A program made the position numbers and the translations under genes. This document shows, one piece after another, positions 53,987 to 57,293 of a stretch of 64,000 nucleotides of DNA. Position 1 is the first letter of the stretch, and every line of letters begins with the position of its first letter. The DNA is from Rhodocyclales bacterium (GTDB taxonomy: Bacteria > Pseudomonadota > Gammaproteobacteria > Burkholderiales > Rhodocyclaceae): positions 37,944-101,943 of the forward strand of contig JAQGMG010000016.1 of assembly GCA_028292485.1 (NCBI GenBank). Direction: 5' to 3'. Below the pieces are notes generated by a model. That model ran no database searches and was not told the origin of the DNA. It was given only the letters and a program-made list of their open reading frames with translations.

Positions 53987-55468
53987 ATGGATATATCCAC
54001 TTCCAGTGCTGACAAGCCATATGACCGCGTAGCCGATCTGCTGTCACTGCAGAATGCTGTGCTCGAGGCTGTCGCGATAGGGCGCGAGCTGCCCGATGCG
54101 CTGGAACTGCTGTGCCGCGAATTCGAGCGCTTGAATGCCGGCGTTGTATGTTCCGTGCTGTTGCTGGAAGACAAGCGAATGCGGCATGGGGCGGCACCGA
54201 GTCTGCCGGACGCATTCGTCAAAGCCATCGACGGTTCTCCCATCGGCCCACAGGCCGGGTCGTGCGGCACTGCGGCATATACCCGCAAAGCCGTTGAAGT
54301 AACCGATATTGCGACCGATCCCTTGTGGCAGGACTACCGATCCTTCGCCTTGCCGTATGGCCTGCGCGCCTGCTGGTCGTCGCCCATTTTTTCGCGCGAC
54401 GGCGCAATCCTGGGCACTTTTGCACTGTATTTCAGGAAGCATCGCGGCCCCGGCGAATTCGAGCGTGAGGCGGTCAGGGTATCGACGCCGCTAGCGGCCA
54501 TTGCCATCGAGCGCAGTCGCATGGAGGCGAGCGAACGAGCACGCCAGGCCGAGCTGGCAGCCAGCAATACACGTATCGAGCAGTTGAACCAGACGCTCGA
54601 GCAGCGTGTTGCAGAACGTACCGGCGATCTGCGGCAGCGCAATGCCGAACTCGCGCGCGCTTTCGAGGAACTGCAGCGCACGCACGGTCAGTTGTTCGAG
54701 GCGAAGAAACTGGTCAGTCTCAGTCACCTTGTCGTCGGCGTGGCCTATGAACTCAATACGCCACTTGGCAATGCCCGCGTGCTGTCAACAACCATGCTGG
54801 AGCGCTGCCAGGCTTTCAGGAAAAGCACTGAAGCCCCGATGCGGCGCACCGACATGCTCCAGTTTCTTGCCGACATGACGGAAGGTTGCGAAATACTTGC
54901 GCGTTCGCTCGGGAACGCCGCAGACCGGATCGGCCGTTTCAAGGCCATCGCTGTCGATCACTCCACCTCGTCTCGCCGTCGCTTTGTACTGCGCGAGGTG
55001 GTTGAAGACGTCGCTGCCCTTTTCGAACCTGTGCTCGATCGCCTTCTATGCAGGATCGAACTGGACGTGCCAGGCGACATCATGCTGGATAGTTATCCAG
55101 GGCCGCTTGGGCAGGTGCTTTCCAACGCCCTGGATAATGCGCTGGAACATGGCTTGAAAGAACATGATCACGGCGTCATTCACATCGGCGCTGCGCGCGC
55201 AACGCCCTCAAGCATCGAGATACGCATCCGCGATAATGGCTGTGGCATTCCGCCACATGTGATCGACAATGTCTTTGATGCTTTCTTCACGACCGGCTTG
55301 GCCGATGGCTACAGCGGACTGGGACTGCATGTCGCGCACAACATCGTGCATGGTCTGCTCGGCGGGACCATAAGCATCGACAGCTCGGCACTGCAAGGTG
55401 CCACGGTCGTTGTGAACATTCCGCTGACTGCGCCCACAGCCGGACGTGCGCCCTACCTGCCGAATTGA
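53987..55468 (+). CDS. GAF-domain sensor histidine kinase with degenerate H box
   Basis: N-terminal GAF; H-box LSHLVVGVAYELNTPLGN (His to Tyr at residue 254); N box LSNALDNALEHGL, G1 IRDNGCGIPP, G2 SGLGLHVAHNIV. Confidence 0.88.
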   Translation: MDISTSSADKPYDRVADLLSLQNAVLEAVAIGRELPDALELLCREFERLNAGVVCSVLLLEDKRMRHGAAPSLPDAFVKAIDGSPIGPQAGSCGTAAYTRKAVEVTDIATDPLWQDYRSFALPYGLRACWSSPIFSRDGAILGTFALYFRKHRGPGEFEREAVRVSTPLAAIAIERSRMEASERARQAELAASNTRIEQLNQTLEQRVAERTGDLRQRNAELARAFEELQRTHGQLFEAKKLVSLSHLVVGVAYELNTPLGNARVLSTTMLERCQAFRKSTEAPMRRTDMLQFLADMTEGCEILARSLGNAADRIGRFKAIAVDHSTSSRRRFVLREVVEDVAALFEPVLDRLLCRIELDVPGDIMLDSYPGPLGQVLSNALDNALEHGLKEHDHGVIHIGAARATPSSIEIRIRDNGCGIPPHVIDNVFDAFFTTGLADGYSGLGLHVAHNIVHGLLGGTISIDSSALQGATVVVNIPLTAPTAGRAPYLPN

Positions 55469-55601: not shown

Positions 55602-57293
55602 ATGCAATTTGCTTGTCCTGCTGCCGGTGTCTGGGCGTGCCGCGCTTTCTGCATTGTGCTGCTTACGATATGTGGCGCCGCAAACGCTGCCGGTCTTTCC
55701 GTATGGGAACTCCAGACACGACTTGCCACCGAGGGCGACGACACAAAGCCCGTCATCGTAAAAGTGCTGGCAGATGTACCGGACCAGGTGGATGAGGTTC
55801 TGATCGACATGGGCATAGATAGTGGCAGGAATATCAAAGATGGTACGAAGGGGAAGGGGCCTGAATTCGGCTATTCAGGCATTCCGTTTGTACGCATACG
55901 CAAAGCACTGACGCAGGCAAATGTGGCGTTTTTAACACCCGGGTTGCCCAGTGATCGCGACAGTGGTCTCGATCAAAATTGGCGGGAGGGCTTCTTGCAC
56001 CGCGATGACATTGGCAAAGTGGTTTCGGAAGCCAGGAAGCGCTTTCCAGCTGCACGCATTTATCTTGCGGGCTATGCAACCAGTGCTTCGTCTGTGCTCA
56101 ATATGGCGACCCATCGCCTTGCCGGCGTAGACGGATACGTCATTATCGGCGGATATTTTCGTCGGCATCGTAATGACAGCCTCGGCGATATCAAGGCTCG
56201 TGGCTTACTCATTCACGCACGTGGAAATCTTTGTGACGCAGGGCCAATGATCGAGGCGCGAGACGTTGCCGAGCAGGCACACTGGACGCTTGTCGAAGCG
56301 GGCTTCCCAACGCCTGACGCCCAGCCCGGATGTGCTGCAAGCATGCACGCCGGTCTGGGAGGCCTCGACGGGGAGTATTCGAAACTCCTGATTTCATGGA
56401 TAAAGAATCAGACACCTTTACCGCAACGGATCGGTGCAGAGAATCCGGCGGAAGCTCATATCGAAACCGTGCATATGATTCCCGCTGGCTCTCGCGGAAT
56501 ATTCGCGCGGAACACGTTGGAAATGACCTTGTTCACGCCTCTTGGGAACGGCCCTTTTCCGCTAGTAATATTCAATCATGGCGATGTCTCGTTGGAACCG
56601 GAAGACATTCGTCGACAGGTGCGATTTCGCGACATGTTCATGGCAAGAGAATTCCTGGCGCTGGGATTCGCCGTAGCGGAACCTGCACGACCGGGTATCG
56701 GCAGATCCAGTGGCATATATTCGGCTTATCCCTTGGCATATTCGGGTAGTAGCGCTCTTGACAAAGGAGAGCTTCATGCGCGTGAGGTATTCGCCGCAGT
56801 CGAATATTTGAGAACCCTGCCGCAAATCGATGCCGACAACATCGTGCTCAGCGGACAATCGGCAGGTGGCTTTGCAGTCATCGTTGTCGGCATGACAAAG
56901 CCATCGCCGCCATGGCTCAAGGCGATCGTCGACTTCTCCGGCGGTAGAACCGACTCGCCAATGGGGAAGGTTTCGACGGCCCTGCTGAAACCAATGATCG
57001 ATGCGTTTGGTGAAGCCGGAAAAACCACTCAGGTTCCCGAACTATGGATATTCGCCGAGAACGATAGCCGTTACAGTGCGGACACCATTCGCGCCTCGCA
57101 TGTGGCTTTCACGCAAGCGGGCGGACAAGCTGAGCTCTTGCTTTATCCTCCGTCGAAAGGCGACGGGCATTTTGTCTATCACGAGCCGGAAAAGTGGCGC
57201 GACGGCTTGCGCCAATTCATGCAGCGGGTTGGCCTTGTTTCGCCGCAGAGGCAGGATCCTGTGCAAAGTGCCCCTGTTGCGACCGTGCGTTAG
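55602..57293 (+). CDS. Secreted tandem alpha/beta-hydrolase-like protein (N-terminal half degenerate)
   Basis: Signal peptide at MQFACPAAGVWACRAFCIVLLTICGAANA; second half has LSGQSAGGFAV elbow and catalytic Asp/His regions; first half has elbow LAGYATSAS lacking Ser. Confidence 0.7.
   Translation: MQFACPAAGVWACRAFCIVLLTICGAANAAGLSVWELQTRLATEGDDTKPVIVKVLADVPDQVDEVLIDMGIDSGRNIKDGTKGKGPEFGYSGIPFVRIRKALTQANVAFLTPGLPSDRDSGLDQNWREGFLHRDDIGKVVSEARKRFPAARIYLAGYATSASSVLNMATHRLAGVDGYVIIGGYFRRHRNDSLGDIKARGLLIHARGNLCDAGPMIEARDVAEQAHWTLVEAGFPTPDAQPGCAASMHAGLGGLDGEYSKLLISWIKNQTPLPQRIGAENPAEAHIETVHMIPAGSRGIFARNTLEMTLFTPLGNGPFPLVIFNHGDVSLEPEDIRRQVRFRDMFMAREFLALGFAVAEPARPGIGRSSGIYSAYPLAYSGSSALDKGELHAREVFAAVEYLRTLPQIDADNIVLSGQSAGGFAVIVVGMTKPSPPWLKAIVDFSGGRTDSPMGKVSTALLKPMIDAFGEAGKTTQVPELWIFAENDSRYSADTIRASHVAFTQAGGQAELLLYPPSKGDGHFVYHEPEKWRDGLRQFMQRVGLVSPQRQDPVQSAPVATVR

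Follow-up and report, generated by a model that had tools for sequence, protein, structure and literature searches.

The gene described here encodes a homolog of sensor histidine kinases and is located on a 64-kb stretch of DNA (referred to in its entirety as the window) from a Rhodocyclales genome of 3.96 Mb in 54 contigs. The coordinates of the gene and of the features within it are listed in Table 1. In addition to the domains given there, the protein contains a HATPase_c domain (PF02518, 2.2e-22), and a long coiled coil is present between the GAF domain and the DHp helix pair. The domain search yielded a single GAF domain and no match to a PAS domain, and no transmembrane segment was evident when the 493 aa were inspected by eye. 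In an AF2 model based upon a 9-row alignment, the GAF domain and the coil were modelled well (pLDDT about 90 over residues 20-220), and the values for DHp/CA were mostly <70. The Pfam HisKA model was not reached in this protein; as it was also not reached in the His-bearing ortholog from the same genus, and was matched only below threshold in another ortholog (L012), the missing match does not result from the Tyr residue alone and was rejected as a sign of degeneration. The orthology of the protein, its shared locus and a HATPase_c domain that contains the N, G1 and G2 boxes indicate that it is, by descent, a HisKA-type sensor histidine kinase.

Table 1. Positions in the window of the kinase gene and of the domains, boxes and residues discussed in the text
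Feature	Position	Strand	Basis and remarks
Sensor kinase gene	53987..55468	+	493 aa, soluble GAF - coiled coil - DHp - CA; full length without stops
GAF sensor domain, about residues 15-180	54029..54526	+	PF13185 1e-15, residues 34-175
DHp (phosphoacceptor) region, residues 241-330	54707..54976	+	homolog alignment
Tyr254 at phosphoacceptor His position, codon TAT	54746..54748	+	alignment; CAC in the two best-aligned orthologs
Glu255, acidic, adjoins phosphoacceptor; retained	54749..54751	+	E in 19/19 homologs
Thr258 (H+4, phosphatase-linked in HisKA kinases), retained	54758..54760	+	alignment; Ala in same-genus ortholog
N-box Asn384, retained	55136..55138	+	N in 19/19 homologs
G1 box D416-N-G418-C-G420, retained	55232..55246	+	alignment
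F box NVFDAFFTTGL, residues 428-438, degenerate (K428N, P432A, R437G)	55268..55300	+	homolog alignment
G2 box G444-L-G446-L, retained	55316..55327	+	alignment

The gene for this kinase is of sporadic occurrence. At a threshold of E<=1e-80 the gene was detected in 7 of the 399 genomes of the family, which belong to 2 of its 68 genera. The six other orthologs (L011, L012 and L040-L043) comprise one from the same genus and five of Niveibacterium type, and the GAF-DHp-CA layout is common to all of them. The same-genus ortholog (L011/L045) is from the Rhodocyclales MAG RYN_554, the only other sampled species of the genus, and it shows 77% identity to the window kinase, as compared to 54-56% for the Niveibacterium-type orthologs. 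In the ortholog from Niveibacterium sp. 24ML, a member of the next genus carrying the gene, an in-frame TAG is found near residue 314, in the DHp region, in both data sets (L042, L046), and this gene is either broken or its two halves are made separately. The two species of the genus share the gene order dinG - DUF805 - kinase - pfp, and the DinG neighbour is 97% identical. Between the kinase and pfp, the window contains an additional gene (55602-57293, plus strand) for a predicted secreted alpha/beta-hydrolase-like protein, which is not present at this locus in RYN_554. Its product shows a weak Peptidase_S9 match (PF00326, 1.3e-4, just under the cut-off) and no NCBIfam match, and its GC3 is 0.57 versus 0.67-0.79 for most neighbours; it looks like a lineage-specific insertion.

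A preliminary description of this DNA had noted a TAT codon in place of that for the H-box His, and the homolog alignment bears this out, as it sets Tyr254 exactly on the H-box His. This residue is part of the sequence SHLVVGVAYELNTPLGN, in frame in the open reading frame of the gene. The alignment of orthologs at residue 254, which the description had proposed as a check, shows His in the same-genus ortholog as well as in the five Niveibacterium-type orthologs, and His is also found in 19/19 homologs from the wider family. The outcome for the orthologs corresponds to one half of what the description had named as a refutation, the other half being reads with CAT. Hence, the phosphoacceptor His that is characteristic of the H box of active HisKA-type kinases is replaced by Tyr in this protein. 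The motif G-[VI]-A-Y-E-L-N-T-P, searched for in genomes as a degenerate pattern at the DNA level, gave a match in one of the 399 family genomes and in one of 300 genomes of the order, the window genome in each case, while the same pattern with His was present in 128 of the 399 family genomes; the Tyr is accordingly not a mere chance occurrence. Because Tyr254 is found in only one genome, there is no conservation of this residue that could show a selected role for it. The RYN_554 ortholog displays the reverse of the situation in the window protein, in that its phospho-His is kept and the H+4 residue is changed (T258A); another conserved residue is lost in it as well (P371R).

Of the boxes of the catalytic domain, all of which had been described as looking intact, the N, G1 and G2 boxes are indeed so, with N384, D416, G418, G420, G444 and G446 all kept in the alignment. 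The description was, however, incorrect for the F box. The orthologs have the sequence (K)VFDPFFTTRL in this region, and both P432 and R437 are present in all of them; in the alignment of family homologs, residue 432 is P in 19/19 and residue 437 is K/R in 19/19. The window protein, with FDAFFTTGL versus FDPFFTTRL, thus carries P432A and R437G at two family-invariant sites, and its ATP lid (FDAFFTTG) departs from the FDPFFTT(K/R) form expected of an active kinase. The importance of P432 and R437 is argued here from their conservation; a literature search by name on the role of the F-box K/R returned nothing usable, and no paper was found that tested the exact equivalents of these two residues. 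The losses in this protein fall in the phosphotransfer machinery, and it retains the nucleotide pocket as well as Glu255 and Thr258.

Based upon these observations, we consider it probable, with good confidence, that the gene encodes a natural and species-specific pseudo-histidine kinase, in which H254, P432 and R437 have been lost (H254Y, P432A and R437G) from an orphan, soluble GAF kinase. Irrespective of its present role, the changes in its sequence make it very probably a dead kinase. The three losses would postdate the divergence of this lineage from RYN_554. The preliminary description had proposed a pseudo-kinase, a recent single-base lesion or a sequencing error, and the first of these is supported, with three losses rather than one, while the last is unlikely. 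The description had also stated that no response regulator is adjacent to the kinase, and this applies even more broadly than was claimed, as the entire 64-kb window is devoid of PF00072 domains, and about 60 kb separate it from the nearest receiver domain of the contig. The genome itself is rich in signalling proteins, with 101 receiver-domain and 70 HATPase_c matches over the cut-offs in 3.96 Mb. A search for an intact duplicate of the kinase elsewhere in this genome found none, the next best match being 40% identical and without a GAF domain.

To what extent the gene is still maintained bears upon the foremost alternative, viz. that the kinase is dispensable and that its gene is an early pseudogene which has yet to acquire a stop or frameshift. 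The dN/dS value for the window gene versus that of RYN_554 is 0.107 (GAF 0.101, DHp 0.101, CA 0.115), at a dS of about 1.5, which is near saturation. For the neighbouring genes, compared between the same two loci, the values range from 0.024 to 0.099; the kinase is thus the fastest-evolving gene of the locus, yet averaged across the entire divergence it is still under constraint. In a tree of the orthologous proteins, the branch leading to the window protein (0.163) is similar to that of its RYN_554 sister (0.155), and the polarised unique changes number 15 and 12, respectively. As the window branch is not accelerated, either the His was lost recently or constraint on the protein persists without kinase activity. 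It is possible that the lesion is recent and the gene in the course of being lost, because the branch shows neither acceleration nor clear new constraint, and the rate data fit recent loss and continued constraint alike. The sporadic distribution of the gene and the internal TAG in Niveibacterium sp. 24ML, which shows that loss happens within this ortholog group, indicate that the kinase is dispensable on an evolutionary time scale and make decay a serious rival, and the RYN_554 copy has also lost conserved residues (T258A, P371R). However, the window gene retains a full-length frame, its branch is without acceleration, and its losses are limited to phosphotransfer elements instead of being spread over the N, G1 and G2 boxes. 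Decay is, in our view, a real possibility, which we hold to be rather less than evenly probable.

A sequencing or assembly error at position 54746, where a C would have been read as T, is very unlikely. Although one base from CAT would suffice to produce the Tyr codon, P432A and R437G are further departures at invariant sites in the same protein, and one read error cannot yield three separate losses. The frame is also intact and the neighbours, including DinG, are normal. Further, when 60 other HATPase_c regions of the window genome were read stretch by stretch, 56 were found to possess the H-box His, three were of CheA type and one (L118) was without assignment; as all of the 56 other H-box kinases that were read have His, the assembly is not generally faulty. 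Substitutions at the His site have been estimated to occur in about 1% of sequenced histidine kinases, with Tyr among them (PMC5361649). With roughly 60 sensor kinases in the window genome, about one kinase without His is to be expected at this rate, and the presence of a pseudo-kinase in it is not surprising in itself.

The least probable explanation, to which we assign hardly any weight, is that the protein is still an autokinase through another phosphoacceptor (Tyr254, a Ser/Thr, or His247, which is two helical turns upstream and is shared with the same-genus ortholog, although absent from those of Niveibacterium type), for while autophosphorylation on Ser188 has been reported for the chloroplast sensor kinase (CSK) of Arabidopsis, a protein without the His (PMC6949291), autophosphorylation of plant CSK was not seen in another study (PMC5054060), DivL with its Tyr shows no autokinase activity (PMC4211667), the acidic residue remains beside 254 and not 247, and the ATP lid is without P432 and R437. 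His247 as a replacement was rejected, as the sister protein carries both His247 and His254.

In HisKA chemistry, no phospho-His intermediate is formed in the absence of the His, and no phosphotransfer takes place. As a pseudo-histidine kinase, the window protein would accordingly be incapable of autophosphorylation on His and of phosphotransfer to response regulators, and the changes P432A and R437G in the lid would be predicted to impair its handling of ATP. Any residual action would most probably come from the DHp/CA dimer, which, under the control of the GAF domain, could still bind to a response regulator or to a second kinase as its partner. Much as proposed for DivL-like proteins, it may then act through binding, through sequestration or through some phosphatase activity, with Glu255 and Thr258 being kept. 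The residues equivalent to the H+4 Thr258 in HK853 (T264) and EnvZ (T247) are needed for phosphatase activity, and the His also helps to position the catalytic water in this reaction (PMC5727384). Because of this contribution of the His, Thr258 alone may not suffice to preserve phosphatase activity in the window protein, and a binding-type role is favoured if the protein has any role. If it is a natural pseudo-kinase, we give a retained function of the binding type about an even chance, and the chance that the gene is on its way out falls somewhat short of even. It is also conceivable, although improbable, that a bifunctional kinase has been split in opposite directions in the two species, with Thr258 kept without phospho-His in the window protein and His254 kept without Thr258 in its sister. 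Under such a split, the former would be a GAF-gated phosphatase or binding protein and the latter a kinase that is not easily reversed, and both would target the same response regulator with opposite default output.

Pseudo-histidine kinases are a known, although uncommon, kind of protein, and natural Tyr-bearing examples have rarely been documented outside of DivL and the green-algal CSK. In DivL, from Caulobacter and other alphaproteobacteria, Tyr550 likewise occupies the very site of the phosphoacceptor in a kinase of HisKA type, the rest of the kinase core is recognisable, and the loss of autophosphorylation is what we predict for the window protein. DivL with Tyr550 has neither kinase nor phosphatase activity, yet it specifically binds DivK~P, and the change Y550H alone does not restore autonomous autokinase activity (PMC4211667). 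However, DivL has multiple N-terminal PAS domains in contrast to the single GAF domain found here, and its F box is reported to be intact, whereas that of the window protein is degenerate. Its Tyr is conserved across the alphaproteobacterial orthologs, with one Ala exception, while the Tyr described here is limited to a single Rhodocyclales species. Lastly, DivL works with DivK and CckA (PMC4211667). The green-algal CSK shares with the window protein the soluble GAF-HK architecture; its His is replaced by Tyr or Gln (PMC2677595, PMC5054060), and its CA domain has changed correspondingly. CSK differs in being a chloroplast protein of cyanobacterial Hik2 descent, the GAF domain of which contains a [3Fe-4S] cluster, and in plant CSK it is G1/G2 that have changed and not the F box, the box that is altered in the window protein. 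The laboratory-evolved ChrS pseudokinase of C. glutamicum, which is catalytically dead, still alters signalling via a paralogous kinase (PMC9491836), but it is a membrane heme sensor and its activity was lost due to a frameshift in the CA domain and not by loss of His. Since the window protein has very close relatives that bear His, and the changes that separate it from them are mapped, the steps from an active kinase to a pseudo-kinase are in this case testable residue by residue. The window protein resembles DivL and the green-algal CSK in kind and is probably a member of neither, CSK and Hik2 being compared by description only.
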